From: a virus
Virus record (IMG/VR): IMGVR_UViG_3300030012_002828
Location: 1 to 64,000 of that record
Direction: 5' to 3' (one strand)
Length of the DNA: 64,000 nt
The notes beneath the pieces were generated by a model, which was not told the DNA's origin, ran no database searches, and was given only the letters and a program-made list of their open reading frames with translations. Below are positions 5,012-34,495 of the stretch, in pieces. The translations under genes were made by a program, and so were the position numbers. The first letter of the stretch is position 1, and each line of letters starts with the position of its first letter.

Positions 5012-5167
5012 ATGTGGGAAGATATATTAAAAAAGAAAAAAGATGCTTGTTATCATAAAGTAAGAAGTCGTTATAAAAAGTGGCCTTCTGCTTATGCTTC
5101 AGGTGCATTAGTACAATGTAGAAAAAAGGGTGCTAAAAATTGGGGCAATTCTAAGAAGAAGAAGTGA
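5012..5167 (+). CDS. W-tagged 51-residue basic protein
   Basis: The ATG at 5012 follows GGTGATTATT, a good ribosome binding site for this genome, and the frame runs to TGA at 5165-5167. It starts M-W-E-D-I-L-K-K, then has a compact conserved-looking body with two Cys, many Lys/Arg and aromatic residues (segment W-P-S-A-Y-A-S-G-A-L near residue 24). From memory, very similar small bodies recur in marine virus contigs, but I cannot verify this here. Probably a virion-internal or DNA-binding peptide. Confidence 0.75.
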   Translation: MWEDILKKKKDACYHKVRSRYKKWPSAYASGALVQCRKKGAKNWGNSKKKK

Positions 5168-5171: not shown

Positions 5172-6008
5172 ATGTGGCAACTTATTCTTAAGAAAGAATC
5201 TAAATGGGTTAATAATCTTTCTGAGAGTAAGCAAAAATTACTAAATACTAAACCTTCTTTTAATGTAAAATTTCCCGAACTTTCATTTCCCGATAATGAA
5301 AGTGAATTGTCTGAAGTTATGAATATAATGGAAAAATATGAAATGAGTAAAGATGTCGAAAAGGATTTAGACCAAAATAATAATAAAATGATGTTAGATA
5401 TTGTTGGAGAAAATGCAGTAGATTGGGCAGACTTCGTTAAAGATGTAGATATTTATACCATGCAATTAAAAATGAAATACAAAAGACCAAGACCCTATGA
5501 AGTTTCAGATAAAATTAAATCTATAACAGATACTGATGATACACCATCTTTTCCAAGCGGCCACGCTATTGAAGCATATGCTTTAGCAAAAGTCCTCGCA
5601 GAAGAACACCCTGAAAAGGAAGAAGAATTATTTAATATGGCTGAAGCAATTGCTTTATCGAGGGTATTAATGGGTAATCATTTTCCAAGTGATATAGAAG
5701 CAGGTGAAAAAATAGGATTATTAATTGCTGATGCTTATTTAGATACCGATGTTAAAAAATCATGGGAAGACCAATTATCTAAAGGTTGGGTTGATTGTTC
5801 TTCATGTGGTAAAGGGAAAAAGAGAAGACCTTGTGGTAGAAAGGATGCTTCTAAAGGGCAAAAAAGAAGATGCCGACCAACTTGTTCAGCCTGTAAAGAT
5901 TACAAAAGACGAGCAGGTAAAAGAGGAAAGAAAAAGAAAAGAAGAAAAGGCACTTTTAGTTTAGAAGATAAATATGGACTTCACGGTTGGTTCAAAAGGA
6001 GGGGTTGA
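5172..6008 (+). CDS. W-tagged PAP2-type phosphatase with basic Cys-rich tail
   Basis: Start chosen at the ATG at 5172, which gives the tag M-W-Q-L-I-L-K-K; an upstream GTG in frame lies inside the previous gene. Of 278 residues, the middle carries the three PAP2 acid phosphatase motifs: K-x6-R-P (K100 to P108), P-S-G-H (128-131) and S-R-x5-H-x3-D (S163 to D174). Family members remove phosphate from lipids or small molecules. There are no clear membrane segments, so it resembles soluble class A or vanadium-haloperoxidase-like members. A second tag-like peptide (S-W-E-D-Q-L-S-K, 197-204) precedes a Lys/Arg-rich tail with about eight Cys. The fusion suggests an enzyme carried in the virion. Substrate unknown. 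Confidence 0.85.
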   Translation: MWQLILKKESKWVNNLSESKQKLLNTKPSFNVKFPELSFPDNESELSEVMNIMEKYEMSKDVEKDLDQNNNKMMLDIVGENAVDWADFVKDVDIYTMQLKMKYKRPRPYEVSDKIKSITDTDDTPSFPSGHAIEAYALAKVLAEEHPEKEEELFNMAEAIALSRVLMGNHFPSDIEAGEKIGLLIADAYLDTDVKKSWEDQLSKGWVDCSSCGKGKKRRPCGRKDASKGQKRRCRPTCSACKDYKRRAGKRGKKKKRRKGTFSLEDKYGLHGWFKRRG

Positions 6009-6465
6009 TATACCAATAAGAAAGGTGAAAGGCGGCTATAAATGGGGTAAGCGTGGTAAAGTCTATAAAAATCGTAAAGATGCTGAACGGCAAGCGGCTG
6101 CTGCATATGCTTCAGGATATAAAAAATCTGAAGATGTTATTACATGGAAAGATATTCTTAAAGCAAAAAGAATCCCAAGAAAGAAAGGGCAACCTGCTAA
6201 TTCTAAAAAACATTCAGATTTATACACAGATGAAAATCCAAAAGGAACAATACATGGTTTAGGATTTAAAACTGTAAAAGATGCAAAACGCTCAGTAGCA
6301 AAAATAAAAAGAAGTAGTAGAACCCATGCACATAAAACTCAAGCGGCTATCGCTATGGAACAAAGAGCAAGAGAAATGGGTAAAAAAACTGCGGCAGGTA
6401 TTTATAGGACTTTCATTAACGCACAAAAGAGAAAGACTAAAGCAAAAAGGAAGCGTAAAAAATGA
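5974..6465 (+). CDS. Basic two-domain protein with internal W tag
   Basis: 163 residues if begun at the ATG at 5974, which overlaps the end of the phosphatase gene by 35 bases in the +1 frame and has no clear binding site. An AGGAGGGG run at 5997-6004 lies inside the overlap. Residues 20-50 are Lys/Arg/Ala-rich; an internal tag T-W-K-D-I-L-K (58-63) follows, then a second basic domain ending in a Lys/Arg tail. The internal tag makes it look like two tagged genes fused. It may be entered by a frameshift from the upstream gene rather than by its own start. Likely DNA-binding and virion-associated by inference. Confidence 0.65.
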   Translation: MDFTVGSKGGVDIPIRKVKGGYKWGKRGKVYKNRKDAERQAAAAYASGYKKSEDVITWKDILKAKRIPRKKGQPANSKKHSDLYTDENPKGTIHGLGFKTVKDAKRSVAKIKRSSRTHAHKTQAAIAMEQRAREMGKKTAAGIYRTFINAQKRKTKAKRKRKK

Positions 6466-6694: not shown

Positions 6695-7579
6695 ATGCCA
6701 AAATTTTCACCTCGAAGAAATGAATTATTTCAAGTGTCAAGGTATGAATTACCAGATGGTTTAAAAAAACATATTGCTGTTGGTGTACAAAAAATAAAAA
6801 GCGATAGAGATACAAGTTATCCTAATAGTAATTGGGGTTCTGATGAACTAATGGTTATAGAAGGAAATAATCCAATGATACAACAGGGAGGCGGAGATTA
6901 TAGTATAACTTATATTTCTTTTTTTAAACTAAGAAAAGGAGGCGGAGTTTCAATTCCAGTATTAGATAAATTAAGTGTAGATAGAAGATTAACACAAGAT
7001 GCAAAAGGTCTGCTTAAATTTTTTGGATTAACTGATAGGTGGGCATTACCACCAGAAGATGATGAATCTAAATTAGCAGCAGGGCATTTTAGAGTTAATT
7101 TAGAAAGAAATGAAGTAATGGTACAATATGTTACAACATACAATTCATCGTTTATTGTTTTATATATAGGTTTTGAAAGTCCTTTAAAAATTTACGAAGG
7201 GTATAATATGTATAGTGACTTAACGGTTCGTGAATATATTGGTTTAAGATTGCTTTACAAGTCTTTTAAGAATCGCAGAAGAGAATGGAAATTATCAGAT
7301 GCTTGGCGACATTTTTTTAATGAATGGTCAAAAAGCGAAGTTACTGTTAAATTATTAGAAGGGAAGGGTTATTTACGATTTAAAAAAGAAGGTTTTCCAA
7401 GCATTACATCTAAAGGAAAAGCACATTTAGAAAATTTAATAGATAATGTAAATTTTGTTTCATTACAATTTAATGGCCGTGTTTCAGATATATTAAAAAT
7501 GGATTTAAATATAAATTGGAATGCTGAATTAGATAGTAAATTAATGGATGTATTGGAGGAATATTATGGATTGGACTGA
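6695..7579 (+). CDS. Protein of unknown function, possible winged helix at C-terminus
   Basis: 294 residues, not recognised, and without a W tag. The N-terminal 150 residues look beta-rich with Gly-Gly turns. Residues 200-265 have a helix-turn-helix-like layout with a wing (K-G-Y-L-R-F...), suggesting a winged-helix fold. The stop overlaps the next gene by 14 bases, so the two are probably translated together. Confidence 0.7.
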   Translation: MPKFSPRRNELFQVSRYELPDGLKKHIAVGVQKIKSDRDTSYPNSNWGSDELMVIEGNNPMIQQGGGDYSITYISFFKLRKGGGVSIPVLDKLSVDRRLTQDAKGLLKFFGLTDRWALPPEDDESKLAAGHFRVNLERNEVMVQYVTTYNSSFIVLYIGFESPLKIYEGYNMYSDLTVREYIGLRLLYKSFKNRRREWKLSDAWRHFFNEWSKSEVTVKLLEGKGYLRFKKEGFPSITSKGKAHLENLIDNVNFVSLQFNGRVSDILKMDLNINWNAELDSKLMDVLEEYYGLD

Positions 7580-8342
7580 GAAATTACAAAAGAATCAAAT
7601 ACAAATTGGTCGTCAAAATGTAAAAACATCAAGATTACCATTACCTGAAAAAACACCTAAAAAAGATTGTAATGAAGAATTACTAAATATACATAAAAAA
7701 ATATCTGCTAAAATGAAAACATATGTACCTAAAATATTTGATGTATTTAACAATGCCCTTCTCCCCTCTTTAAAACATCAAGACGGTTCTATTGACAAAT
7801 TAAGACCTATTGTTTTATCCGACTCATTTCTTAAAAATAATTATTTAAAATATGAAGGTTCGGGGTATGAATACGGTGTTAAAGTAATATTAACACCAGA
7901 TAATCATATGAATAAACTTTCTGAACATTTAGGTCTTACTATGTATTGTCAGTTTATACCTTTTGAAGATGAAGAAATTGCTTGTAAAGTATTAGATTGG
8001 ATTAAAAATACAAAAGATGGCGTTATAGATTCAGATATATGGTTTGGAGATAATAGAAAATATCACGGTGCAATGGATTTGGATTATGAAAGAAGTGGAA
8101 TTGCAGATATACTTATTGGTATTGGCCCAAGAAGTAACGATGGTAGCGGTGCTTTTATTGTCTATCTAAGATTTAATGAATATGTTAATTTAGCATTTAG
8201 ACAGGTATATACTTTACTTTTAGGGGTTAAGGATGACCCCAAAAAAATTGCTGAAGATTGGTTAAATGATTTTCTTAGTGCTGTTAGTGATGCAGATATA
8301 AGGGCTATGGCAGAAGAATTAATAAATATAATTAGACAGTAA
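7566..8342 (+). CDS. Single-module PLPEK protein with W tag
   Basis: The ATG at 7566 is preceded by GGAGGAATATT; an upstream in-frame start is less likely. The 258-residue protein opens M-D-W-T-E-K-L-Q followed at once by a PLPEK motif (residues 9-35, ending at C35). The rest, about 220 residues, is the size of one unit in the polyprotein-like gene at the left edge. It therefore defines what a single free-standing unit looks like. Function unknown. Confidence 0.8.
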   Translation: MDWTEKLQKNQIQIGRQNVKTSRLPLPEKTPKKDCNEELLNIHKKISAKMKTYVPKIFDVFNNALLPSLKHQDGSIDKLRPIVLSDSFLKNNYLKYEGSGYEYGVKVILTPDNHMNKLSEHLGLTMYCQFIPFEDEEIACKVLDWIKNTKDGVIDSDIWFGDNRKYHGAMDLDYERSGIADILIGIGPRSNDGSGAFIVYLRFNEYVNLAFRQVYTLLLGVKDDPKKIAEDWLNDFLSAVSDADIRAMAEELINIIRQ

Positions 8343-8498: not shown

Positions 8499-8969
8499 AT
8501 GGTAAGGATGCCAAACTTCAAACCTGATAGAGAATTAGAAACAGAAGAATTTATTTATTCTGAACATGATATGGAAGATGTATTAGAAGGTTCAGCAGGA
8601 GATTGCTGTGAATTGGCAAAAGATTCTTGGATTAAGTCAGTAGAAGACCAAATACCAAGTATAAATAATCTTAATAGAGAATATGTTGCTTATACATTAG
8701 ACCCTTCTAATTTAGATTGTAGAAATTTTTTAGATTTACTTAAAAAATTAAATCAAATGAGACCGGGAAGTTTTGCTACGGCTTCGGTAAATAAAATTAT
8801 AGGTAGATATTTTAGAATAGACCAAATGAAAACATCGTTATTAAGTAGTGTAGCAACAATAGCCAAAAAAGCAGGTGCAGAAGCGTTAAAAACTTGGATG
8901 TATTGTGCAAGTAAAAAGAATGAAATGTCTACTAATTGGCAAGATACTCTAAGGAGAGATTTTAGATGA
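8499..8969 (+). CDS. Small protein with a C-terminal W-tag-like peptide
   Basis: 156 residues, starting after GGTGATTAA. The body has several Cys (C-C near residue 33) and is mainly helical; no family recognised. It ends with T-N-W-Q-D-T-L-R-R, which resembles the W-x-x-I-L-K tag but at the C-terminus. The stop overlaps the ATG of the next gene (ATGA). Confidence 0.7.
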   Translation: MVRMPNFKPDRELETEEFIYSEHDMEDVLEGSAGDCCELAKDSWIKSVEDQIPSINNLNREYVAYTLDPSNLDCRNFLDLLKKLNQMRPGSFATASVNKIIGRYFRIDQMKTSLLSSVATIAKKAGAEALKTWMYCASKKNEMSTNWQDTLRRDFR

Positions 8970-9121
8970 AATGGGAAGAATATTTAAAAAGTATAACTAA
9001 TAAGGAAATAACAGACTGGGAAGATGCTATTAAAGCATTTACTAAAAAAGGAAAAGAATTAGGTATGCCTTTGAATATTATAGATACTTTAACAAAAGCA
9101 TTAAAGAGGGAAGAAAAATGA
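8966..9121 (+). CDS. 51-residue protein with two W tags
   Basis: Begins M-K-W-E-E-Y-L-K after an AAGGAG site and contains a second copy (D-W-E-D-A-I-K-A) from residue 17. The rest is a Lys-rich helix. It overlaps both neighbours through ATGA junctions. The protein is little more than two tag helices joined, which may make it a linker or a minimal cargo adaptor. Inference only. Confidence 0.65.
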   Translation: MKWEEYLKSITNKEITDWEDAIKAFTKKGKELGMPLNIIDTLTKALKREEK

Positions 9122-9387
9122 GTTGGAAAGATATACTAAAAGGTGAAGACCGCTTCGGAATACTTAAACCGAAAGGTTTCAAAAACAAGGTAAAAACAGA
9201 AGCAAAGCGAATAGTAAGAGAAAGGCATGGATTGAAATTTGATGATTTTTTAAATGCTGAACAGAAGCGTGAAGCGGCATATTTAGCAGAATTGATGTTT
9301 AGAGGAATGTCACCCGAAGAGGCTAAATTACAATCTTATAACCCGCCTCAAATGGATGATGATGATTTACCAGTAGAAGGATTTTGA
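9118..9387 (+). CDS. MSW-tagged 89-residue protein
   Basis: Starts M-S-W-K-D-I-L-K-G-E-D. A Lys/Arg-rich stretch (residues 18-40) is followed by a helical part and an acidic end with four Asp in a row. No family recognised. Translation is coupled to the previous gene by an ATGA overlap. Confidence 0.75.
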   Translation: MSWKDILKGEDRFGILKPKGFKNKVKTEAKRIVRERHGLKFDDFLNAEQKREAAYLAELMFRGMSPEEAKLQSYNPPQMDDDDLPVEGF

Positions 9388-9406: not shown

Positions 9407-10726
9407 ATGTCATGGAAAGATATTCTAAAAGATGACGATGAGGATGAATACGGTAAGCGTTTTATGAAACCCGATGGTGAAGAATTCGTACAGGGATATG
9501 GTTTTATTGAAGAACCATACGGAGAAGATAGACAACCTATTACAAGAGATGAAAAAGGAAAACCATTAGAAGGCGAAGAAAGAGATAAAAGAATGGAAGA
9601 ATTTAGACAAGATAGGAAAAACCCTAAAATTTCAGAATTAGTCAATTGGTTTAAAATTAGTCTTGAAGCAACAATGGAAGATATGTTAAGTAGTATTGGG
9701 GCTGAATATACAGAAATGGATGGTAGAGGTGGAGGCTTCGCTAACATAAGAAGAAAACCAACAAAGGTAAAAACAAAAATTAGAGAATTAGGTGTAGAAA
9801 TAACTCAAGATATTATTGATAGTGTAATTGAAGGTTTTATGGATGCTATCACAAAAGACCCTAAGTTTAACGATGAAGAAACAAATCTTCTTAGAATTAC
9901 TCTTTCATCCGGTTACCAAAGGGTTTATGATTCAGGTTTAAAAATATCTGAAGAATTAATGACTGGTATTTTTGATTCAGTATATAATAATATAAGGGCA
10001 ACTAATGAAGCAGATGTTCCTGAAAAAGAATATGACAAAGAAAAACTTGACCCATTAGGAGATGTACCTAAAGAATTTACAGAAGATATGTGGGCGGCCA
10101 CATCAAATAGAATAATAAGAGATATAGAATCAATATTAAGTAATATTGATGATTATCTAACAGATGTTATTTCACAAGATAAAGCATCATTAGAATTATT
10201 TGATTTAGATTCAGATGGCACACCCGATGTTACTGCAACAGAAATTAAAAATTCTATTAAAACTAAATTACAACAATTAACTTCTTCACCTCAAATGACA
10301 AATTTAATTAAAGAATTTACAGGTGCTGTTTCTTTTGCTTTTGCTTTTAGATACCCACAAATGCAACAAAGAATGGAAATGAACCCTGATATTGCAGACC
10401 AAACAACATATGAAGAATTAGGCCAAGACCCTAATTTTGAAACAGAAATGGCTAATAGACCCGAAATACAATCAGGAGAAATGACAGATGAAGAAAGACA
10501 AAAATTTGAAGACAAGTATAAATCTAACGATACTTATACAGGAGAACTCAACTGGCAATCTATATTATCTAAAGGGCATGGTGTAGCACTAACTTCTCAA
10601 GCAGGTTTTAGTCCAGCAATACATAATTTAGCATTTGGAAATAAACCATGTTGTGATGAATGCGCTGAAGTAAAACCACCTTGTAGTAGATGTAAAGATA
10701 AAACAACTCCTTGTGGTTGTGATTAA
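9407..10726 (+). CDS. MSW-tagged protein with a second tag and Cys-rich tail
   Basis: The ATG at 9407 lies 4 bases after AGGTGAATA; an upstream GTG belongs to the binding site. The 439-residue protein starts M-S-W-K-D-I-L-K-D-D-D. The body is acidic and helical. An EF-hand-like stretch (D-L-D-S-D-G, about residue 267) could bind calcium. A second tag-like peptide (L-N-W-Q-S-I-L-S-K, W383) comes before a tail with eight Cys in the last 25 residues, probably a metal-binding knot. Not recognised as a known family. Confidence 0.75.
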   Translation: MSWKDILKDDDEDEYGKRFMKPDGEEFVQGYGFIEEPYGEDRQPITRDEKGKPLEGEERDKRMEEFRQDRKNPKISELVNWFKISLEATMEDMLSSIGAEYTEMDGRGGGFANIRRKPTKVKTKIRELGVEITQDIIDSVIEGFMDAITKDPKFNDEETNLLRITLSSGYQRVYDSGLKISEELMTGIFDSVYNNIRATNEADVPEKEYDKEKLDPLGDVPKEFTEDMWAATSNRIIRDIESILSNIDDYLTDVISQDKASLELFDLDSDGTPDVTATEIKNSIKTKLQQLTSSPQMTNLIKEFTGAVSFAFAFRYPQMQQRMEMNPDIADQTTYEELGQDPNFETEMANRPEIQSGEMTDEERQKFEDKYKSNDTYTGELNWQSILSKGHGVALTSQAGFSPAIHNLAFGNKPCCDECAEVKPPCSRCKDKTTPCGCD

Positions 10727-10727
10727 A

Positions 10728-12032
10728 ATGAGTAAGTTTGAAGGCACAGATTTTGATAATGTAGACCAATATTTTGATATTGGTGCAATTAAAGGAGATT
10801 ATGATGCTTGGAAAACAAAATGGAATAAAGGTTCTGAGTGGGGAATTGTAGGGGGTAAAGATGGTAATAAACCTAAAACTGTTTTAGAAACAGTATTAAA
10901 TCATGGTGACCCTACCTTTGCCCGTGACCAAGCAAGAAGTATTGAAGGTTTAGGTGCTTTATTAGAAGCATTAACAGAAATACTTGATGGCGATACAATT
11001 GAAACAGAACATAAACTACAATTACAAGAAGCAATAGATGGTATGGAAGAAACTTTAACAAGAGATAAAGGTAAATGGAATCCAAGAAATATACCTTTTA
11101 ATACTGTTGTAGAATTTAACGAAACTGATGACCCTAAAGCACCTGATATAGTAAGAGATACAGTTTATGGGCATTACAGAACAAAAGCATATAATGATTA
11201 TGTAGAATGGGCTAATGAAAATAAACCCAATAAAAATTTAAAGGTTGCTAAACACGAAGATGAATGGACTAATAAATCACAAGGTAAAGCAAGACCTCCA
11301 CTTTGGCAAGCAATTACAGGCGTGGGAGAAACTAATGAAGGAAAAGGCGGTATTTTATTTATTGCAAAAAAAGCATTAAAAGGTGTAGATAAAATTAAAA
11401 TGGGTGATGGTAATAGAATTGCTATCTTTAATAATTCAAAAGGGCCAATTCAATTAGCGCAAATAAAAAGTGTTCAAGAAAAAGTTATAGAAGTTTTACA
11501 AAATCCTAATATTTATCCCGCAGGGAAATCAAGAGCACCTATGAAAGATAGATTAAATGCTGCTTTTACTAATGAAAGTTATGCTATAAGAAATGAAGAA
11601 GAAGCCCGATTACTTAATTTTGCTAAAGGGTATGATAGGGTTGAAGGTGTTGAAAAATTAAAAACTGTTAAACTAAGATTTCCAAAAAATAATCTTGCTC
11701 TAAATAAAACCATTGTACAGGTTCTAAAAGTTTTAGGACAAGAAATGAAAAATTATCAAACTCCAAAGGCTAAAGATGGAACAGCAAAACCCGGATTAGT
11801 TTTGAAAGAAAAAAGAGAAAATAAATTTAAAGGAGAAATTACAATGAGTTGGAAAAATGTATTAAAACAAAAAAAATTAAGCCCTAAGCAAAAGAAAATT
11901 GCTGAAGCGGCTGAACCTAAACATAAAATTACAGGTGCAGATTTTAAAGCATTAGCCGAAGAAGATAAAAAAACTGTTACTCGAAAAGATAATAGAAAAA
12001 AAGGAAGAGGCGCATTTACAGATAGGGATTGA
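10728..12032 (+). CDS. Unknown protein whose C-terminus is a tagged module
   Basis: 434 residues from the ATG at 10728, one base after the previous stop. The first 370 residues are charged and match no family I know. Near residue 373 the frame contains M-S-W-K-N-V-L-K preceded at the DNA level by AAAGGAGAAATTACA, a full ribosome binding site. The C-terminal 62 residues can thus be made both as part of this protein and alone (next entry). Confidence 0.75.
   Translation: MSKFEGTDFDNVDQYFDIGAIKGDYDAWKTKWNKGSEWGIVGGKDGNKPKTVLETVLNHGDPTFARDQARSIEGLGALLEALTEILDGDTIETEHKLQLQEAIDGMEETLTRDKGKWNPRNIPFNTVVEFNETDDPKAPDIVRDTVYGHYRTKAYNDYVEWANENKPNKNLKVAKHEDEWTNKSQGKARPPLWQAITGVGETNEGKGGILFIAKKALKGVDKIKMGDGNRIAIFNNSKGPIQLAQIKSVQEKVIEVLQNPNIYPAGKSRAPMKDRLNAAFTNESYAIRNEEEARLLNFAKGYDRVEGVEKLKTVKLRFPKNNLALNKTIVQVLKVLGQEMKNYQTPKAKDGTAKPGLVLKEKRENKFKGEITMSWKNVLKQKKLSPKQKKIAEAAEPKHKITGADFKALAEEDKKTVTRKDNRKKGRGAFTDRD
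11844..12032 (+). CDS. Nested MSW-tagged 62-residue basic protein
   Basis: In-frame internal start. The DNA around the ATG (AGGAGAAATTACAATG then MSWKN codons) closely matches the start of the separate gene at 13048 (AGGAATTACAATG then the same codons). The product has the tag, a basic stretch L-S-P-K-Q-K-K-I-A, a segment I-T-G-A-D-F and a Lys/Arg end. Separate translation is inferred from the binding site. Confidence 0.5.
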   Translation: MSWKNVLKQKKLSPKQKKIAEAAEPKHKITGADFKALAEEDKKTVTRKDNRKKGRGAFTDRD

Positions 12033-12037: not shown

Positions 12038-12700
12038 ATGACAAGGAAAGTAAGAAAGTCTTGTAAATTATGCCAACACGAAGACCGTGATGGTTTAGAA
12101 GAAGACATACTTGCTGGAAATATTACTTGTGATGAATTAGATAAGCAGAATAATTGGTGGGCAGGAACTTCTAAAAAACATATGCAAAATCATTTAGGGG
12201 ATTATCACGATAATTCTAACCCTTCTTGTCCTGTATGTACATATCCTAATAGAGCCGAAATAGAAATAGCAATTAGTGAAGGTACGATGAAAGTTTCTGA
12301 TGCGGCAGAAATAATATCTTGTTCAGAAGCACAAATACAATTACATATGAAAAAACATTTAAAGCCTATTGTACAACAACATGGTGCTTTAGAAGTTGCA
12401 AGAATGGATTTAAATGAAATAGATATGTTATCAGGTAATGTAACTGTACTACAAAATAAAGTAAATGAATTATTAGAAAATACTGAATTAGGTACAAAAC
12501 AAATAGATTCATTAACTAAATTAGCAAAAGAAATTAGAGAATCTCTTAAGTATATGTTAGAATTTAAAGGACAATTAGTTCATAAAAGAGAAGAAACTGT
12601 TGTTGTTCAACAAGTAGAAATTATCCAAAAAGTTCTTATAGAAAAATATCCTGAAGTATGGACTGAGATAAGAGATAGTGTAGCGGAGAGATTATCATGA
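12038..12700 (+). CDS. Putative terminase small subunit with two zinc-finger-like repeats
   Basis: 220 residues. Two similar N-terminal units each have C-x2-C followed by a helix-turn-helix-like stretch and H-x3-H (about residues 9-56 and 64-107). Such units would suit recognition of viral DNA ends. The C-terminal half is a long helical, probably coiled-coil region, as in terminase small subunits, which form rings. It is untagged and is the best small-terminase candidate in the window, although the large subunit is 8 kb downstream. An alternative is a DNA-binding regulator. Confidence 0.5.
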   Translation: MTRKVRKSCKLCQHEDRDGLEEDILAGNITCDELDKQNNWWAGTSKKHMQNHLGDYHDNSNPSCPVCTYPNRAEIEIAISEGTMKVSDAAEIISCSEAQIQLHMKKHLKPIVQQHGALEVARMDLNEIDMLSGNVTVLQNKVNELLENTELGTKQIDSLTKLAKEIRESLKYMLEFKGQLVHKREETVVVQQVEIIQKVLIEKYPEVWTEIRDSVAERLS

Positions 12701-13035
12701 GTTGGAAAAATATATTAAAGGCTCGAGGAAGTAATGTAAATAGATGGGGCGGAAGAGATTGGGATTACCCTATTTGGGTTAATAAAGAAGGAGAAATATA
12801 TGAATTATATAGCGCATACTATAACGATGCTGGAGATTATGCAGAAAATTATGCTGAATATAAAAGTATAGGTGCAGACAGAAGAGTTTTACAATTAACT
12901 AAAGATGAAGCATTAGAATTAGAAGCAGACTTAAAAGATGTTCCTGAAGAATCAAAAGATTCGTGGGATAAAGCACCGTTGGGTCATGTTTTGGTAGATG
13001 ACCTCATGCAATATGGTGATATTGAAGATGATTAG
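12697..13035 (+). CDS. MSW-tagged acidic protein
   Basis: 112 residues starting M-S-W-K-N-I-L-K-A-R-G, coupled to the previous gene by an ATGA overlap. The body is rich in Trp, Tyr, Asp and Glu and probably folds as a small alpha/beta domain. No family recognised. Confidence 0.75.
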   Translation: MSWKNILKARGSNVNRWGGRDWDYPIWVNKEGEIYELYSAYYNDAGDYAENYAEYKSIGADRRVLQLTKDEALELEADLKDVPEESKDSWDKAPLGHVLVDDLMQYGDIEDD

Positions 13036-13047: not shown

Positions 13048-13569
13048 ATGAGTTGGAAAAATATATTGAAGGCTGACGAATCTTGGAGAAAGAATTTAAA
13101 GCGTGGCGGAAAAGCCAAGCCTAAACAAACAGATACTATTATGGAATTTATTAAAATGAATCCTAAAAGAACGATAGCAGATATTCAAAGACATTTACAA
13201 TATTTATACCCCGCACAAATGACAACTAAAAGACTTAGAAAATTTTTAGAAGAAAATACTAATATTGTAGTTTCTGGTAGATACCCTACAACATATAGTT
13301 ATAGAGAACCGTTATCTAAAGCAAAGAAAAAAATACCAAGAAAAGCAATTAGAGATGAAATTGACAAATATGTAAATTCTCAAGATGGTAAAGTTACAGT
13401 TAGAGAAGTTCAACAAGCCCTTATTAGAAAATTAGGAGTAATGGGTTTAACTGAAAAACCAGCATCTGTAAAAAATTATTTGTTTGGATGGCATACAGAA
13501 AAGGCTGAAGCCTTTGACCCAAATATTCATAGAAAAGATGATTTTTATTACGAGTTGGAGGATGAATAA
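13048..13569 (+). CDS. MSW-tagged protein with two winged-helix-like domains
   Basis: 173 residues. The tag M-S-W-K-N-I-L-K is followed at once by a second, shorter one (S-W-R-K-N-L-K-R). Residues 30-80 (beginning T-I-M-E-F-I-K-M-N) and 95-150 look like two winged-helix or helix-turn-helix units, so DNA binding is likely. The end is acidic. The start follows TAGGAATTACA, shared with the nested start at 11844. Confidence 0.75.
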   Translation: MSWKNILKADESWRKNLKRGGKAKPKQTDTIMEFIKMNPKRTIADIQRHLQYLYPAQMTTKRLRKFLEENTNIVVSGRYPTTYSYREPLSKAKKKIPRKAIRDEIDKYVNSQDGKVTVREVQQALIRKLGVMGLTEKPASVKNYLFGWHTEKAEAFDPNIHRKDDFYYELEDE

Positions 13570-14850: not shown

Positions 14851-15060
14851 ATGACGAAAACAGAAAAGGAAATAACAGAAACAGTAGAAGATGTAGAAGA
14901 TTTAGTAGAAGATGCCCTTGATATTGCAGAAGATTTAGGACTTATTAGTGAGAAAAAGGTTGATAAGATTCTTGCTAAACTTAAACAATATAAAAAGCAA
15001 ATTCTTATTGCAGTTCCTTCTATTTTGGTAGTAGTAGGTTTGGTACAATCTCAATTGTGA
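14851..15060 (+). CDS. Small acidic protein with C-terminal membrane helix
   Basis: 69 residues after a GAGGTGG site. The first 35 residues are highly acidic with a regular Glu/Asp-Val spacing; residues 50-66 form one hydrophobic helix. It could be a third component of the lysis set or a membrane anchor. Confidence 0.6.
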   Translation: MTKTEKEITETVEDVEDLVEDALDIAEDLGLISEKKVDKILAKLKQYKKQILIAVPSILVVVGLVQSQL

Positions 15061-15069
15061 GGTTGTACT

Positions 15070-17403
15070 ATGAATTGGAAACTAATTCTAAAAGAAGATA
15101 GTACACCTAATATAATTAGCGCAGGTGCTATCAAAACAAAATTTAGTAAAGGTAACTTACCTTCTAAAAAAGAAATAGATGAGATAGTAGAGGTACATGG
15201 ACAAGTCCAAATAAAAAATATTGATACAGCCCTTACACAATTAAAATCTGCATACAATAAAATTGCTCAAGGTGAAGATGCACCTAATAGTATTATTAAT
15301 AGAATGATAGAAGGTAGATTTAGTAAAGTAGGTAAAGATAGAGAAGATAGTCTTAGAATTGTAGGAGAAAGATTAAAAGAATTGCAGGCTCTTAAAGGAA
15401 CAGATGAAAACCCCCTAATAAATAAAACAATAGGAGGAATAACATTTGGGGAGTTAGTTTCACCCGATGATAAAACAAATCAAGAGTGGACTATTGAAAC
15501 TCTTAATGCTTTATATCAAAAAATGATAACAGAACCATCCGTTGAATTGTTGTACGCATTACATTATTTTATTAATACTTCAACCGATGGTAATTGGTCA
15601 AGAGCAGGAGGTTGGGTTAATAGAATGGGCAAAGATTCAATAGAAAATCCTGACACACAATTTTTAAAGAATGTTTTTGATTTAAGAGGTAAGCGTGATG
15701 TTAAAGGTAATATTGATAAAAAGGTTTTTGAGTTCTTTAATAAAGGTAATAAATTTAAATACACGACAGAAGGTATGAGAAATATTACTGTTAAAAGAGG
15801 TAAGGGTAAGTTTGTAACAAGAGAAGGTAAAGAGATTTCTCCAAGTAGAAAATACGAACAAGAAGGTGGCTTTAGAGAAGTAACAAGAGAAGTAGGAGAT
15901 TCACGAAATATTGTAATGGGTGAAAGAAAGTCTATGCAATATTTGATTACTGATGATTTAGTAAATAAAATCAAATCATTAACAGAACAACAATTTATAG
16001 AATTGGTTAATAATTTAAATAAAACAAATTCTTCAATAGATTTTATATCTTCATTAAAAGGTACTACTACTGAAATAGTCTATATGTTATTAAGTAGAGA
16101 TATGGGTATAAATGCTTTAGTTAGAAATATAGATGTTGCGAGAAAGGGTATGAGTCCTTCTTCACGAAGAAAGGATTATCTACATGATTGGGCTGTTAAG
16201 GAAGTTAATAAAAGAATGAAAAATGCAAATGATTCAGATGGAGAAGACTTTGAATTATTTAATATAGTATTACCTTCGCAAACTAAAGCAGAAGAAATTA
16301 TAGAAAATAAAGGGGATAGTTACGACGAATTTAGAAGAAATAAATCTAAGATGATAGATAATTTAAAAGGTAAAGTTAGAGGTGGGGATGAAACTTGGAA
16401 CAAATCTTTTGAAACATGGCTTAAATCAAGAAGAAGATTAGAAGATTCTTATCAAGGGGGCGATTCTAAAACTTTAGACCCATCGCAGAACCCTGTTAAT
16501 GTTGAAGGTGCTATGAATATAAATTATTCTTTTAAGACTTCAAACCAAATAAATGATTTTATAGAAAATTTAGGTGGCGATACTGTTTTCCGTTCACATA
16601 TACTTTCAAGAAATTTATTAGCATTATTTTTTGATTATTATATTGATTTTGGCCCAGAAGAAGGTAGAGATAAAGGTGAAAGACTTAGAACATTGGGCGA
16701 CTTTAAAGGCTATTTGCCTTCAGGTAGAATTTTTGCTGATTCAACGGAAACTACATTTTTTGACTCTATGAGAGCATTACTTACAGTAATAAAGAAAGTT
16801 TTAACAAATTCTGCATTAAGAAACTATAATCAAAATATTAACATGTCATTAGAAAAATTCTTTGAAGGTATAGATGAATTATTTAAAAAAGAGGGTGGAG
16901 AAATAGATTTACAGCCCGATGACGATGAAAATAGAAAGGAAATATTTAGCGATATAGATGCTATGGATTCTATTGATGATAATTTAAAATCATCATGGTT
17001 TGGTACAAAGGCATATATGTTAAATATAGAAGATGAATTATCCTTTGCTATGATGGATTTAAAAGAAGCAGTTGCAGAAAAAATTGCGGAAAATATTATT
17101 TTGATTGCTGAAGATACTACCGATAAATACAGACCTTCAGGAATAAAAATAGGTGGTAGGTCAAAAGGTATAAGAGATTACCTTGCGTTAAAGAAATTTA
17201 TAATACCACCTAAACCACCTAAACAAATCAAAGTTAATAAAACAACATACAAGTTAGACGAATCTATGTTTGATGAAACAGATTTAGATGCACAACTAAA
17301 ATATTATGCCTTTGAGAAAGAATATGACTTTTCTGAAGAACCATCTTTAAATATGGATAAGGTCAAGACACTAACACTAAGAGAGGCTATTGAGGGGTTT
17401 TAA
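15070..17403 (+). CDS. Large W-tagged protein of unknown function
   Basis: 777 residues beginning M-N-W-K-L-I-L-K-E-D. The sequence is charged and mostly helical with no recognised catalytic motif. Its size and tag make it the largest single-chain cargo candidate. It is one of four very large unknown proteins interspersed with the head genes (also 17407, 25208, 34509). Confidence 0.75.
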   Translation: MNWKLILKEDSTPNIISAGAIKTKFSKGNLPSKKEIDEIVEVHGQVQIKNIDTALTQLKSAYNKIAQGEDAPNSIINRMIEGRFSKVGKDREDSLRIVGERLKELQALKGTDENPLINKTIGGITFGELVSPDDKTNQEWTIETLNALYQKMITEPSVELLYALHYFINTSTDGNWSRAGGWVNRMGKDSIENPDTQFLKNVFDLRGKRDVKGNIDKKVFEFFNKGNKFKYTTEGMRNITVKRGKGKFVTREGKEISPSRKYEQEGGFREVTREVGDSRNIVMGERKSMQYLITDDLVNKIKSLTEQQFIELVNNLNKTNSSIDFISSLKGTTTEIVYMLLSRDMGINALVRNIDVARKGMSPSSRRKDYLHDWAVKEVNKRMKNANDSDGEDFELFNIVLPSQTKAEEIIENKGDSYDEFRRNKSKMIDNLKGKVRGGDETWNKSFETWLKSRRRLEDSYQGGDSKTLDPSQNPVNVEGAMNINYSFKTSNQINDFIENLGGDTVFRSHILSRNLLALFFDYYIDFGPEEGRDKGERLRTLGDFKGYLPSGRIFADSTETTFFDSMRALLTVIKKVLTNSALRNYNQNINMSLEKFFEGIDELFKKEGGEIDLQPDDDENRKEIFSDIDAMDSIDDNLKSSWFGTKAYMLNIEDELSFAMMDLKEAVAEKIAENIILIAEDTTDKYRPSGIKIGGRSKGIRDYLALKKFIIPPKPPKQIKVNKTTYKLDESMFDETDLDAQLKYYAFEKEYDFSEEPSLNMDKVKTLTLREAIEGF

Positions 17404-25207: not shown

Positions 25208-27439
25208 ATGCAATCTTTATTCTTAATAGATAATTTACGAAAGAGTCTTTATACAAGACTTTACTATATTTTAGTAGATAGTGATTATATTATTAAGGCT
25301 TTGTCTGACAAAGAAATAAAAGAAATGATGGACTTTGTTTCTGCTAAAAGAAATGCGATAGAAAACGCTATTCGTCAATCAAGATATGCAGATAAAAAAA
25401 TTAATTATCCAAATAGTCTATATAAGAAAAGATATGAAGAAATAGAAGAAAAATATGCAAAGTTGGATGACTCTACAAGAGGTTATGGTGCAGTAAAGCG
25501 AAGAGAACAAATGGAAGCGGAGATAAAATCATTAAATAAAAGACTTGGTGAAGATATTGCTAAAAAATATCCTTTAGAAAATTTAGAAACACAATTAATT
25601 ACTCAATATATTGAAGACAATCACAGTAATGAAACTGTAAAGGATGTTAAAAATCAATTAGAGGATTATAGACTATCAGAATTTGATAAAAGAATGGAAC
25701 AACAAAGGCAAATAAATACCGAAAGAGAACCTCAAAGATTAGAAAGACAAAGAATAAAAGATAGAAATAAAAGAATTTTTGATGAAAAATGGAAAAAGGC
25801 ACAAGAAAAATTTAAAAAACTTATGGGTAGTAGGGACAAAAAAAGTAAAATAGATATTCTTATAGAAGATTGGATGAAAAGTACCGTAAATACAAGACCT
25901 GAAGATTACAGAAACATGACTAAATTACTCGATTTTGTAGGAAGTTTGAAATATACTGATAGTAAAACTATTCCAAGACTAAAGAAATTTTTAAGCGAAG
26001 AAGAATTATCTTCTGAAGATAAAAATAAATTAAATAAAATTTTAGAAGAATTAGAAAAAGAACAAAAACAAAGAGAAAAGAAAATTGGTCGTTCTTCAAA
26101 AATAACTCCTAATGCTGCTGAAGCAAAATCTGAAGGTATTAAAGTAGGAAGAAAATCAAAAATATTTAGGAAGCATATTTCTATTAAATACGCAGGTACA
26201 GAAAGTTTAAAAATAAAAAATACTGATTATTTTTTGGGTTTTGAAAAATTAGATTTAAGAATTCCCACTTGGTACAATAGTACTATTCTTAGAGATATTC
26301 CTATGTATTGGATTGAAAAATCAGGATTTACAAAAGGTTTAGATAAATGGGAAGATTTACCAGAAGATGAAAAAACCAAATATATTAAAAAAATTGTGGG
26401 ACAATTACCAGAATATCCTAAAGTAAAACCTTTGGGTACTCTTGAATCTCTTTATAGAAATGTATGGGAAAGGCATTACAAATTAGATAACAAAGAAGAC
26501 CCCGAAAATTTTGCTTATTTTGTGCAAGGTATAAGAGATGGTCTTATGGAAACAAAGGGTGATTCAGCCGCTTCTGATTTTTTAAGTTTAAAAATGTTTA
26601 AAGAAGACACTCTACCTAAATTAGTTAAGGCTATTAAATCAAACATTGTTGTAAATACTGAAACAGGCACTATTGATTTTAGATTAGGGCCTGCTTTTGG
26701 CAAACTTATGAGAAAATATAAAACTATGGAAGAAAGAACTGATATTATTGAAGATTTAATAGATATTGTTAGAGGTAAATCTCTAAGTACAAAATATGCA
26801 GGAAGAAATGCTCAAGAATTAAAATCCATAGAAAATGACATTATTGAAATGGTTAGTGAAAAAATAGAAGGTGAAACTGTTTTATCTTATATTATTAGTA
26901 CTTTTATAAGTATGTACCCTTCAACTAAAATATTATCAAGATTATTTAAAGAAGAAAAACCCGTAGTAGAAGTAAAATATCTGACACCTATGGTTTCAAA
27001 GCCAACTTTACCTAAAAGAGAACAAAAGAAGACAGGCGTAAAACTCTTACTTAGAAGAAACTTAGATGAAACTAAAAAGTCACTTGATAATTTGTTGGTA
27101 GTAATGGGTGAAGAGGATGACATCATTATTAAAGAAGATGTAGGTATTATTTTAGAATCCTTAAACAATAAACAAAAGAAAAAGGTTAAGGCAATTTTAA
27201 ATATAGCAGACCCCACAGAATACTTCGGGCACGATTTCCTTAAGTTATCGGAACTTGTTAGAGTATTGAAAACTTTAGGTGTTGTTAAGGGAGATAAAAA
27301 ACTAAATAAAAAGATTCTTAGGTTAGAAGATGAGAATATTAAGGTAGTAAAATTAGCAGCAAGATTAAGAAAAGACTACGAAAGATTATACAAGCAATTA
27401 AGAGAAATGATATATCCAAAATTAGGTGATAAAAAATGA
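25208..27439 (+). CDS. Large helical protein of unknown function in the head operon
   Basis: 743 residues, highly charged, with a long Glu/Lys/Arg-rich coiled-coil region (about 60-330) and a more mixed C-terminal half. No catalytic motif recognised. It is placed between portal and ligase, overlaps the next gene by 4 bases, and has a GGAAG site. A minor head or internal core role is inferred. Confidence 0.7.
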   Translation: MQSLFLIDNLRKSLYTRLYYILVDSDYIIKALSDKEIKEMMDFVSAKRNAIENAIRQSRYADKKINYPNSLYKKRYEEIEEKYAKLDDSTRGYGAVKRREQMEAEIKSLNKRLGEDIAKKYPLENLETQLITQYIEDNHSNETVKDVKNQLEDYRLSEFDKRMEQQRQINTEREPQRLERQRIKDRNKRIFDEKWKKAQEKFKKLMGSRDKKSKIDILIEDWMKSTVNTRPEDYRNMTKLLDFVGSLKYTDSKTIPRLKKFLSEEELSSEDKNKLNKILEELEKEQKQREKKIGRSSKITPNAAEAKSEGIKVGRKSKIFRKHISIKYAGTESLKIKNTDYFLGFEKLDLRIPTWYNSTILRDIPMYWIEKSGFTKGLDKWEDLPEDEKTKYIKKIVGQLPEYPKVKPLGTLESLYRNVWERHYKLDNKEDPENFAYFVQGIRDGLMETKGDSAASDFLSLKMFKEDTLPKLVKAIKSNIVVNTETGTIDFRLGPAFGKLMRKYKTMEERTDIIEDLIDIVRGKSLSTKYAGRNAQELKSIENDIIEMVSEKIEGETVLSYIISTFISMYPSTKILSRLFKEEKPVVEVKYLTPMVSKPTLPKREQKKTGVKLLLRRNLDETKKSLDNLLVVMGEEDDIIIKEDVGIILESLNNKQKKKVKAILNIADPTEYFGHDFLKLSELVRVLKTLGVVKGDKKLNKKILRLEDENIKVVKLAARLRKDYERLYKQLREMIYPKLGDKK

Positions 27440-27666
27440 GCGAAGAATTAACACTATTATTAAAAGAATTAGTAGAAAGAATAAAGACTTTAGAAACAAC
27501 CGTATACAATGCAGATAATGTATTGCTTAAATCCGGTCTTGTTAAAGTAGACGGAATAAAACCATCAATACAAAGTGCAAGTAGAGTACCAAGTGCTGAT
27601 ACAATAGCAAAAATGGATTGGTCGGAAATAGATGAATTAGTAGTAAGAATGGCAGGTGAACAATAA
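27436..27666 (+). CDS. Small head-operon protein ending in a W-E-I-x-x-L-V peptide
   Basis: 76 residues after GGTGATAAAAA. The N-terminus is a short leucine-rich coiled coil. The last 18 residues (27613-27663) begin M-D-W-S-E-I-D-E-L-V, nearly matching the C-terminal peptide of the scaffold at 31986. The shared tail suggests both bind the same partner, perhaps the inner face of the capsid protein. Confidence 0.65.
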   Translation: MSEELTLLLKELVERIKTLETTVYNADNVLLKSGLVKVDGIKPSIQSASRVPSADTIAKMDWSEIDELVVRMAGEQ

Positions 27667-28190: not shown

Positions 28191-28200
28191 GTGATTGATA

Positions 28201-30749: not shown

Positions 30750-32033
30750 ATGAGTTCTCTTAAGGTTAAACCTATGAGATTAGGTAATCATTATTCAAGT
30801 GGTTCTGAATTTGCCGTACTAAAAGGTACAGGGAAAGATTTAGTTATCGCTGGTTATGCATCTGTTGATGTAGTAGACAAACAAAATGATTTAATTACAT
30901 TGGAAGCATTAAATGATGCGGCTGATAAATTTATGAAGAGTGATTATAAAAATGTAATGATTACTCATTCAAATGTACAAGTAGGAGAAGTAATTGATTC
31001 TTATACAGATACAAAAGGTAACTTGTTAAAAACAGGTTGCGACGATACAGGATTCTTTGTAGTTATAAAAATGAGGAACGATATTGAAAAAGCGAAAGAA
31101 GTAGCAAGAGATATTAAGAGAGGCAAACTTCGTTCATTTAGTATCGGTGGACAGGCTATTAATAAGCATAATGTTCACGACCCCGATATAGGAACATACA
31201 AAGAAATAGATAAATTAGAACTCCATGAGATTACAATTTGTGAAGAAGGAATAAACCCTGAAGCCAAATTTGAAATTGTGAAGGAAAACAAAAATAAAGG
31301 AAGTGAAAAAATGACCGACGAAATTAGTAAAGCATTAAGCGAGTTTGAAGACATTGTAGGCCAACTAAGAAATCAAATTGACAACTCAGTAGTTAAGGAA
31401 GATTTTGATGATGAGCAATCTATGGCAGAACCCGAAATGATGAGTGAAGAAGAAATGATGCCCGAAAAAGTAGATGATGAAGAAGATTTGTCATATAAGG
31501 CTGAATCAGTTGATGATGAAGAAGATATGGATGAAACAAAAGAAAAGAAAGCAGCAGATTCTATTGTTTATGGGCACAATGCAACAGGACAAAAAATGGG
31601 CGAAAGTAATCTAACAGGAAGATTTGATTCTGAATTTAGTGAATTTATTGCTCGTAAATCAGCAACACTTGATACACTTGACCTAAGTGAAGAAAATGTA
31701 GCAAAGGCATATGCACAATTTAAGGCTGAACAAGAAGAAGCAAGAGCATATGATTTGATTAAGAATGAATTTGAAGCAAGATACAATGCTGAACTAAAGA
31801 TGGAAGCAGACATGATTGCTAAAGAAAACTATGACGCAAGTGCTGAAGTTGCTGCTCTAAAAAATGAGTTTGCACAACTTCGCAAATCTCTTGAATCAAA
31901 TAATGAAGTAATTGCAAAGCAAGTTACTCAAGCAACCTCAAGACTATCTGATGATGTAATTTCAAAGATGGACAATATTGGTGAAATGTCTTGGGAAGAA
32001 ATTAATGACCTTGTTAATGAGGTACAAGGCTAA
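30750..32033 (+). CDS. Prohead protease fused to scaffold
   Basis: 427 residues. The first 185 match the HK97-type (S78) prohead protease: a strand-rich start, His73 in I-T-H-S, and the nucleophile Ser131 in R-S-F-S-I-G-G, followed by L-E-L-H-E-I-T (157-163). Residues 188-427 are acidic and coiled-coil, a built-in scaffold on which the capsid assembles. The last 15 residues begin M-S-W-E-E-I-N-D-L-V, related to the W tag of the accessory proteins. The scaffold part can also be made alone from the ATG at 31311. Confidence 0.85.
   Translation: MSSLKVKPMRLGNHYSSGSEFAVLKGTGKDLVIAGYASVDVVDKQNDLITLEALNDAADKFMKSDYKNVMITHSNVQVGEVIDSYTDTKGNLLKTGCDDTGFFVVIKMRNDIEKAKEVARDIKRGKLRSFSIGGQAINKHNVHDPDIGTYKEIDKLELHEITICEEGINPEAKFEIVKENKNKGSEKMTDEISKALSEFEDIVGQLRNQIDNSVVKEDFDDEQSMAEPEMMSEEEMMPEKVDDEEDLSYKAESVDDEEDMDETKEKKAADSIVYGHNATGQKMGESNLTGRFDSEFSEFIARKSATLDTLDLSEENVAKAYAQFKAEQEEARAYDLIKNEFEARYNAELKMEADMIAKENYDASAEVAALKNEFAQLRKSLESNNEVIAKQVTQATSRLSDDVISKMDNIGEMSWEEINDLVNEVQG
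31296..31310 (+). promoter_or_regulatory. Internal ribosome binding site for free scaffold
   Basis: AAAGGAAGTGAAAAA directly before the in-frame ATG at 31311. The same 15 bases occur at 32053-32067, one base before the capsid protein ATG. The exact match in two functional positions of neighbouring genes supports translation start at both. Confidence 0.7.
31311..32033 (+). CDS. Free scaffold protein, nested in the protease gene
   Basis: Predicted 240-residue product of an in-frame internal start. It contains only the acidic coiled-coil scaffold and the C-terminal M-S-W-E-E-I peptide. Phage lambda makes its scaffold Nu3 the same way inside the protease gene C. Supported by the capsid-gene-like ribosome binding site and by domain structure. 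Confidence 0.65.
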   Translation: MTDEISKALSEFEDIVGQLRNQIDNSVVKEDFDDEQSMAEPEMMSEEEMMPEKVDDEEDLSYKAESVDDEEDMDETKEKKAADSIVYGHNATGQKMGESNLTGRFDSEFSEFIARKSATLDTLDLSEENVAKAYAQFKAEQEEARAYDLIKNEFEARYNAELKMEADMIAKENYDASAEVAALKNEFAQLRKSLESNNEVIAKQVTQATSRLSDDVISKMDNIGEMSWEEINDLVNEVQG

Positions 32034-32068
32034 TCCTAATAAGGATTAAAAAAAAGGAAGTGAAAAAT

Positions 32069-33370
32069 ATGAGTTTAAAAATTAGAACAATAGCAGATTT
32101 AGAAAGAGCAACATACGGTTCTTTTGGTGGAAACAGTCTTATTAAGGCAAGTACAGGACAAACAGGTGGAGTAGGAGTTACAAGAGGTATTCATTCGGAT
32201 TCTAACTCAGGTGCTTTTAGCCCTAATGCTCTATACAATTTGGTTTATGGTCAAAAAGTTTGGTCTATGCTAAACCGTGAAATTAATGCATTCGCTATGC
32301 TACCTAAAAAGCCATATCAGTCAAGCGGCTGGAGAGTCATGATTGAAAGAGCAATTGGTGGTCAAGGTGATATTCTTAATATTGCAGGTGGAACAAATCA
32401 AGGTTCTCTAACAGAAGATTTGATTGGTGGTGTTGAAGAAAACGCTTCATTTACTACTAATGATGCAACAGCATTTGCCCCAATTGCACCAAAGTATGAA
32501 ACACTTTATGTTTCTCCTAAAACAATAGCACATCAATTTGAAGTTTCTGAATTGGCTGCTGCTATGGCAAAGATTGATGATGGAATTGGTGATATTATGG
32601 CCGCTTATAGAGAAGAAGTTGGTGTAACCCACGCTGAAATGATGAATCATATGCTTCTAACTCCATTGGAATCTAAGACTAATGGTTCAGGTACTTATGT
32701 AGGTGCAAATAATATTAAATCTCTTTATGAAATTGTAACAAGTAAGGCAGAATTGGAAGCGGCTGATGGTGGAAATCTATTTGCAGGTGCGCTACCAACA
32801 GAAATGAAGACTCTATATGGAAAAGATAGAACAAATGCTGCTAATAATACTTGGATGGATGCTTTTGTAGATTCTTCTGCTGATGCAACAACAAGAAGAC
32901 CACTAACTCTTAACTTGCTAAATACTGCTCTAAGAGAATTGCAAATTCGTGGTGCTTCACCAAAGGTTATTCTAACAGGATATGATACAATTCAAGCATT
33001 GGGAGAACTTCTACAATCTCAAGAAAGATTCATGGGAAGAACCGAAGTACTACCAACAGTAAATGGTATTAAAGGTGTAAAGGGTAGAGAAGTTGGATTT
33101 AAGGTTGCTACTTATCATGACATTCCTATTATTCCTTGTAAGGAAATGGGAAGCACAGGAACAGGTGCTGGATTGAGTGATATTTTCATTCTTGATACTG
33201 ACCATTTGCACTTTGCTACTTTGAAGCCAACAGAATATTTTGAAACCGGTATTGATTCGGGTGACCCATTTTCAGTAAATGGTCTACGAAACAAGGGTAT
33301 GTATCGTACCATTGGTGAAGTTGTTTGTACATATTTGAAAGCACAAGGAAAGATTACTAACCTATCTTGA
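32069..33370 (+). CDS. Major capsid protein, HK97-fold type
   Basis: 433 residues forming the capsid shell. The call rests on position directly after protease-scaffold, on size, and on the character of the sequence: an N-terminal helical arm, a long middle with an E-x-x-x-x-M-x-x helix near residues 170-205 (spine-helix-like), and a Gly-rich C-terminal half. It uses AAG, CTA and CTT codons more than its neighbours, which suggests high expression. The ATG at 32069 follows AAAGGAAGTGAAAAAT. No N-terminal W tag. Confidence 0.85.
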   Translation: MSLKIRTIADLERATYGSFGGNSLIKASTGQTGGVGVTRGIHSDSNSGAFSPNALYNLVYGQKVWSMLNREINAFAMLPKKPYQSSGWRVMIERAIGGQGDILNIAGGTNQGSLTEDLIGGVEENASFTTNDATAFAPIAPKYETLYVSPKTIAHQFEVSELAAAMAKIDDGIGDIMAAYREEVGVTHAEMMNHMLLTPLESKTNGSGTYVGANNIKSLYEIVTSKAELEAADGGNLFAGALPTEMKTLYGKDRTNAANNTWMDAFVDSSADATTRRPLTLNLLNTALRELQIRGASPKVILTGYDTIQALGELLQSQERFMGRTEVLPTVNGIKGVKGREVGFKVATYHDIPIIPCKEMGSTGTGAGLSDIFILDTDHLHFATLKPTEYFETGIDSGDPFSVNGLRNKGMYRTIGEVVCTYLKAQGKITNLS

Positions 33371-34136: not shown

Positions 34137-34183
34137 GAGGGTTGTCGCTACTTTTATTAGTGGCGACTCCCTCCTTTCTTTTT
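34137..34183 (+). terminator. Hairpin terminator after the capsid genes
   Basis: GAGGG (34137-34141) pairs with CCCTC (34169-34173). Inside, GTCGCTACT (34144-34152) pairs with AGTGGCGAC (34159-34167) with one G-U pair, around the loop TTTATT. A run CTTTCTTTTT follows at once. Shape and T-run fit an intrinsic terminator. It separates the capsid genes from the neck and tail genes, so it could lower tail expression relative to capsid. Confidence 0.7.
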
Positions 34184-34201
34184 AACGAAAGGTGTTTAAC
34201 T

Positions 34202-34495
34202 ATGGGAAGAATTCAAAGTACAAGAATAACAGGCGATACTAATGTTCAATCAGCAAGTCCTTGTGTATACAATGGATATACTTTAAGTCCAACAGGTACA
34301 GTTAGTGATTCAAGAACAGTATCTGTTTATGCAGATAATACAGGAACAGGAACAACTAATTTAATAGCAAGATATGTAATTACTCCATCATCGACAATTC
34401 AATATCATTATACTGATGGTATTCTTTGTACAAGTGGTTTGAGAATTGAATGTTCAGATTGGTCTGATTTAGAAATGTTTGTTTTACACTCTTGA
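34202..34495 (+). CDS. Small beta-rich structural protein
   Basis: 97 residues from the ATG at 34202, which follows AAAGGTGTTTAACT; an upstream frame extension runs through the terminator and is not likely. Ser/Thr/Gly-rich strands suggest a small head or neck protein. First gene after the capsid terminator. Confidence 0.6.
   Translation: MGRIQSTRITGDTNVQSASPCVYNGYTLSPTGTVSDSRTVSVYADNTGTGTTNLIARYVITPSSTIQYHYTDGILCTSGLRIECSDWSDLEMFVLHS

Follow-up and report, generated by a model that had tools for sequence, protein, structure and literature searches.

The closest described counterparts of the locus reported here are the scaffold tails of the 80alpha/SaPI1 pair and the capsid-targeting sequences (CTS) of T4. 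In excerpts of the 80alpha account (PMC5644958), the last 16 residues of the scaffold protein (SP) form a helix and hook onto the HK97-fold capsid protein, while the SaPI1 protein CpmB carries a C-terminal motif in common with 80alpha SP and competes with it for one site on that capsid protein. The T4 CTS, as presented in parts of two reports (PMC3012670, PMC7411985), is a short N-terminal peptide common to diverse proteins that brings them into the prohead core. The tryptophan-bearing scaffold tail and the N-terminal W tags described below are a variant of these already known kinds.

Magrovirales have genomes of about 90-100 kb with two opposed gene clusters and a replisome that comprises a family B polymerase, an archaeal primase, a sliding clamp, a clamp loader, MCM and an ATP-dependent ligase (PMC10768690). 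No account of a scaffold tail or an N-terminal tag in magroviruses was found in the open-licence PMC literature, and in the text of PMC10160649 the terms "scaffold", "tag" and "N-terminal" have 0 occurrences each. The window analysed here, 64,000 nucleotides long, comprises bases 1-64000 of a 93,843-base record of a marine archaeal virus. Virion genes lie on its + strand and replication-type genes, set apart from them, on the − strand. Record length, the two opposed gene blocks, a clamp-loader-type AAA protein and a ligase fit Magrovirales; as these two are the replisome-type genes identified, we call the virus magrovirus-like.

The protease-scaffold tail and its second bearer

The inner protease-scaffold is encoded by an ORF of 427 aa at 30750..32033 (+). 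Residues 29-180 match Pfam Peptidase_S78 (PF04586, E 1.7e-10), which identifies the product as a prohead protease, and its PHROG match is to head maturation proteases. The protease domain is followed by an acidic linker, a predicted coiled coil (residues 293-395) and a predicted C-terminal helix. The major capsid protein (MCP; 32060..33370, +; Pfam SU10_MCP, phrog_24667), the presumed docking partner, starts 26 bases past the scaffold stop, placing the coiled-coil part, as seen in a low-confidence AF2 model, directly 5' of the capsid gene. That scaffold model is poor overall (mean pLDDT 53.9) and was used for the helix pattern only: in it, a long coiled coil is followed by short, separate helices, of which the final one spans 415-426, in blocks of pLDDT 77-82. 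The AF2 model of the MCP is likewise poor (mean pLDDT 47.6). A search of solved structures with the MCP profile gave one weak match (1ygm, E 0.0023), and the same search with the scaffold profile gave none. An 837-aa protein with a DNA-ligase domain (Pfam DNA_ligase_A_M, E 4.6e-27) is encoded in the head cluster at 28195-30708, between the small tail protein described below and the scaffold; the replication cluster encodes another ligase (L018:10700-12196).

The scaffold chain ends ...KMDNIGE-MSWEEINDLV-NEVQG-stop. This bears out the peptide given by the sequence-only reading, M-S-W-E-E-I-N-D-L-V plus five residues (NEVQG), which occupies 31986..32030 (+), with its Met codon at 31986 and the stop of the ORF at 32031-32033. 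The model suggests that the tail forms a short helix starting at the Trp, residue 415, whose codon lies at 31992..31994 (+).

Conservation of this tryptophan was followed through two profile scans (the best 80 of 275 matches, plus 67), which gathered relatives down to about 50% MCP identity. A Trp stands a few residues from the chain end in all 16 relatives of the first scan, and the 91 distinct scaffold ORFs that include a stop, a few fragments among them, all keep the tail Trp (relatives' MCPs 50-94% identical). The tails in all 91 follow the pattern [M/L]-[S/D/E/T/N]-W-x-[D/E/Q]-[I/V/L/A], with the Trp 8-16 residues before the stop; examples are AEMDWSDIHKMVGGI, NEMSWDEIHGLFSKHEGGI and NMSWAEAHEFANNMRV. 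In an alignment of 43 rows, the kind of comparison that the sequence-only reading had proposed, no column after residue 377 except W415 is invariant, and both there and among the 91 ORFs the stretch preceding the tail drifts in length and sequence. A wider search returned 143 scaffold-profile ORFs. A Trp lies within the last 26 residues of 139 of them, 129 of which match the tail motif; the other 10 have K or A at −2 and the Trp in another context, which we read as outgroup ends. The four without Trp are the outgroup viruses L390, L391 and L399, together with L305, a 203-aa ORF that stops before the tail. Within the last 20 residues, the motif [ML][STDNE]Wx[DEQA][IVAL] was found in 28 ORFs of 14 records (14 scaffolds, 12 copies of a second, small protein and 2 others) against 0.68 on average in shuffles, which rules out chance as its origin. 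Two side observations concern the relatives. Contigs of MAGs labelled Altibacter and Maricaulis (L213, L214) encode relatives of this MCP at 52-53% identity and are probably mis-binned virus contigs; the genome scan returned those two contigs and no archaeal host. The 184,733-base record G026 (L236, L344, L354) has two different scaffold genes, at 71.8 kb and 163.3 kb, and is perhaps two virus genomes joined during assembly.

The second bearer of the tail is a protein of 76 aa encoded at 27436..27666 (+), which ends DTIAKMDWSEIDELVVRMAGEQ and is homologous to the scaffold C-terminal end, a "mini-scaffold". In the virus group its length is 75-80 aa, and it is present in 14 of 15 distant records; in 7 of the 15, its C-terminal part matches the scaffold end (best 52% identity, E 2e-6). 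Of 17 records with a scaffold, 11 yield the small protein to a search with the scaffold profile (profile positions roughly 327-413, E 6e-6 to 1e-3), and a profile built from the small protein itself recovered five of these matches (L356-L360). The window's own copy, displaced by an antisense ORF, was left out of the 14-record counts of tags and tails. The tail Trp occurs in 104 of 105 distinct copies; the sole exception, L313 (10924 onward), has Phe in its place (SMSFDDMAKIIKKAEGSR), and W tags are still present in that contig. Homology to the scaffold end, together with the same tail, means that the virus has two proteins with one docking-type end; the sharing of a C-terminal helix between the scaffold and another small protein is also the arrangement of 80alpha SP and CpmB. 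The RIIK motif of the latter pair is absent from the 91 tails, which have a Trp-anchored helix instead. Unlike SaPI1 CpmB, the second protein here is the virus's own, and many proteins bear an N-terminal tag that resembles the peptide. Herpesvirus pUL26 and pUL26.5 also have a common end. They too, in the portion of PMC12282113 from which their names are taken, comprise a protease-containing scaffold and a smaller scaffold-type protein; unlike the nested herpesvirus product, the small protein here, with no more than 75-80 aa, is encoded by a separate gene about 3 kb upstream.

The W tags and their likeness to the tail

We defined a strict W tag as M, 0 or 1 residue, W, two residues, an aliphatic residue or Phe, I/L/V and then K/R/H/Q/N, beginning within the first ~30 residues. 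In 14 records, 208 of 1,710 ORFs carry such a tag, 9-24 per record, whereas 200 shuffles of the ORFs gave a mean of 1.5 and a maximum of 5, so that chance is ruled out. All 208 are on the scaffold's strand, that of the late, virion genes, and 0 on the other, though 784 of the 1,710 ORFs are on that other strand. The consensus is S/M/N/T at −1, W, E/K/Q at +1, D/N/E at +2, Ile at +3 (168/208), Leu at +4 (174/208) and Lys at +5 (199/208). Complete tags also occur inside proteins and at their C-termini, for example QPISWEGILRNES-stop and ISKSWQEVIRA-stop; the tag is therefore not tied to the start codon, and its explanation as a start-codon artefact is rejected.

The MSWKDILK-type tag system extends over the whole virus group (records G001-G005, G011, G013-G015 and G017-G020) and in the window spans 2615-17403, all of its members lying on the + strand. 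Two tagged ORFs lie at 2615..3928 (MWEDIIKNQ) and 3961..4683 (MSWESLIKARG), followed by 4686..5006 (MSWEDILKRKK), 5012..5167 (MWEDILKKKKD) and 5172..6008 (MWQLILKKESK). The last of these encodes a PAP2-type phosphatase (E 5e-15); most other tagged proteins are without known function. Further along, W tags begin the ORFs at 9118..9387 (MSWKDILKGED), 9407..10726 (MSWKDILKDDD), 12697..13035 (MSWKNILKARG) and 13048..13569 (MSWKNILKADE), as well as a large ORF at 15070..17403 (MNWKLILKEDS). Tag-like starts are found at 8966..9121 (MKWEEYLKSIT) and, in a weaker form, at 7566..8342 (MDWTEKLQKNQ). The ORF at 5974..6465 has a full tag at residue 58 (VITWKDILKA), either an internal tag or the sign of a later start, and that at 10713..12032 has an internal tag at residue 380 of 439 (TMSWKNVLKQKK). 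When 15 tagged or tag-like window ORFs were aligned, the start alone lined up and the Trp was the sole invariant column. A second repeated motif, K[NS]QI.....[KR]T..R.PLPEK (window 13-3928 and 7566-8342), comes after the W tag in two proteins and has several internal copies in the 866-aa ORF 13..2613 and the 437-aa ORF 2615..3928; it is possibly a linker or cleavage signal.

As with the T4 CTS, the W tag is a common short N-terminal peptide on late proteins that are otherwise unlike. Its sequence is presumably different from that of the CTS, and it is unlike the CTS in that the motif also stands inside and at the end of proteins and in that the scaffold tail has a partly similar helix.

Tag and tail are related in form: a helix N-cap residue, the Trp, an acidic or polar residue at +2 and a mostly aliphatic one at +3 are common to both. 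When non-tag tryptophans are scored by the tag-profile positions −1 and +1 to +3, the tail of this record comes 2nd of 383 and the tails of the remaining 13 records come 4th to 13th of 215-451, which puts the tail in the top 4% in every one of the 14. With +4 and +5 added it falls to 14th of 383 here and 7th to 50th of 215-451 over the 14 records, so that the full tag profile shows no preference for the tail and gives no sign of sequence homology between the two. Leu+4 and Lys+5 are absent from the tails, which thus lack what is most constant in the tags, and the tail's own pattern (His/Asn+4, Leu/Met+6, Val/Ala/Phe+7) is absent from the tags. One tail clade has Ala+3 while its tags keep Ile (e.g. 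L066, L067, L074). The proposal of the sequence-only reading that the tag copies the tail is therefore supported only in part: the N-cap, the Trp, +2 and mostly +3 speak for it, and +4 and +5, the hydrophobic residues +6 and +7, and the Ala+3 clade speak against it.

Part of [S/T/D/N]-W-x-[D/E] may be an ordinary helix N-cap. The core [STDN]-W-x-[DENQ]-[ILV] is enriched at late-strand termini of the 14 records (N-termini 96 vs 1.4 shuffled, C-termini 31 vs 2.8) and near background on the early strand (N 1 vs 1.5, C 4 vs 3.6). An unrelated late protein, 34142..34495, ends in the tail look-alike DWSDLEMFVLHS; its C-terminus, ECSDWSDLEMFVLHS, has similar ends in proteins of G002, G004, G005, G017 and G018, and the likeness to the tail is probably one between unrelated sequences. 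At 12038-12700, a 220-aa protein, possibly a small terminase, has a C-terminus conserved in many records (YPEVWTEIRDSVAERL) that again contains W-x-E-I, probably also unrelated to the tail.

Tail and tags co-occur in 14 of 14 records surveyed. Loss of the Trp from scaffold tails while tags persist, the pattern by which the sequence-only reading would have the link broken, was not seen for the scaffold (Trp in 91/91). Our search for counter-examples covered 24 records chosen among at least 119 tag-bearing stretches, 17 of which have a scaffold. Three of the seven others (G037, G039, G040) have contigs that bear 12-19 strict tags and are devoid of head genes, the sole head-type gene of G037 being the small tail protein near its contig end; the other four are without a strict tag. 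Among 13 further records with unusual small proteins, 12 have a scaffold, of which G060 is cut before the tail and the other 11 end in the Trp tail; G051 (L313) has no scaffold gene within its 12.2-kb contig. An 871-aa frame in G034, considered as a natural scaffold-MCP fusion, was rejected on account of a stop codon in between.

In the phage collection, the MCP has distant relatives in HVTV-1, HCTV-1 and their kin and in vir519 (23-35% identity); a search with the vir519 MCP alone found no relatives, but one with an outgroup alignment did. Druskaviridae (HVTV-1, HCTV-1), whose MCPs fall among those of magroviruses and other marine archaeal viruses in a published tree seen in part of PMC8651126, have a homologous protease and capsid protein in the same protease-MCP gene order. 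Unlike the chain end here, that of the HVTV-1 scaffold, QKSWEQEDEPATDDQVGPAAQQLYDL, is without a Trp helix, and no strict W tags were found in the 100 kb of HVTV-1 examined. In vir519, a complete record of 38.8 kb, the scaffold tail KMTTEEIERQFGGE carries Thr where visual alignment with AEMDWSDIHKMVGG places the Trp, and the whole record has no strict W tag. L398, known over 5.1 kb, has Gln in place of Trp (MSQAEIEKL). L389, whose MCP is 44% identical to that of the window, ends its scaffold in the Trp tail HNMDWSEVDELASRGA on a contig that stops near the portal gene, before the tag region. With both features absent from HVTV-1 and vir519 and both present in 14 records, the tail Trp and the tags go together where both are visible, in what are few independent outgroup cases. 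Several head-region proteins of HVTV-1 and HCTV-1 (L215, L217) have a repeated VYI..P.EAP..V.V..G segment, which is unlike the W tag.

Docking, cargo entry and the alternatives

Shell docking is the first guess for a conserved scaffold C-terminus because of the 80alpha/SaPI1 precedent. Our main reading, to which we give a probability of roughly 0.4, is that the scaffold docks on the shell through the tail helix, which the virus uses twice, and that the cargo tags bind in a Trp pocket identical to or overlapping with that of the tail; docking on the capsid protein, the cargo role of the tags and the shared pocket are what we infer from the comparisons above. The protease-scaffold would use its tail helix to hold the inside of the assembling capsid shell, and the second protein, with the same C-terminal end, would dock likewise, much like a small scaffold. 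The roughly 10-24 late proteins of each virus that carry the Trp-anchored N-terminal helix would be taken by it into the prohead. The tag would probably enter the same or an overlapping pocket, with contacts after the Trp that differ, through Leu+4/Lys+5 in tags and +6/+7 in tails. Set beside 80alpha and T4, the magrovirus case would combine both precedents, its scaffold tail and its cargo tag being of a single type. A version that we hold to be doubtful goes further: a single Trp groove on the MCP would take the tail and its small partner and then 10-24 unrelated, quickly exchanged tail-mimic proteins, and any gene could join the virion by gaining eight residues.

That the tail docks on the shell and the tags dock elsewhere (scaffold coiled coil, protease or portal), their likeness having arisen by convergence on a short helix with an N-cap and a single buried Trp, is nearly as likely as a shared pocket. 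The most constant residues of the tag are those that the tails lack, position +3 is uncoupled in the Ala+3 clade, and excerpts of PMC7411985 describe T4 capsid-targeting sequences as interacting with the prohead core. A shared pocket is in turn favoured by the Trp, the cap residue and the acidic or polar +2 common to tag and tail in all 14 records, and by the presence of both features in the magrovirus-like records surveyed and the absence of both from two outgroup viruses. We regard it as improbable that the tail is no shell-docking element at all and instead serves in scaffold self-assembly, in binding of the portal or in control of the protease, to be removed at maturation. Such a role has a parallel in the HSV-1 scaffold segment that, in part of PMC12282113, binds the portal and not the shell; the tail here, however, sits at the extreme C-terminus past the coiled coil, where 80alpha SP holds the capsid protein in the excerpts of PMC5644958, and the second small protein repeats it. 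Least credible, at long odds, is the view that the W tags are not capsid-entry signals but, for instance, a motif for membranes or host factors, in which case their resemblance to the tail would be irrelevant to packaging. The viruses are uncultured (PMC10768690), from which we take it that a virion proteome is absent, and the mostly unassigned functions of the tagged proteins leave room for such a role. It sits poorly with the confinement of all 208 strict tags to the virion-gene strand and with a tagged set that is diverse apart from the tag, as are the T-even internal proteins with a conserved targeting sequence in excerpts of PMC3012670.

If tail and tag use one site, a short peptide would explain how the heads of abundant, uncultured archaeal viruses are stocked with many proteins, competition between scaffold and cargo would be directly testable, and a sequence rule would be at hand for predicting the internal virion proteins of viruses that have never been grown. 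Should the sites differ, there is still an invariant Trp in the scaffold tail and a separately encoded small protein that ends alike, which together point to a docking site whose structure merits determination.
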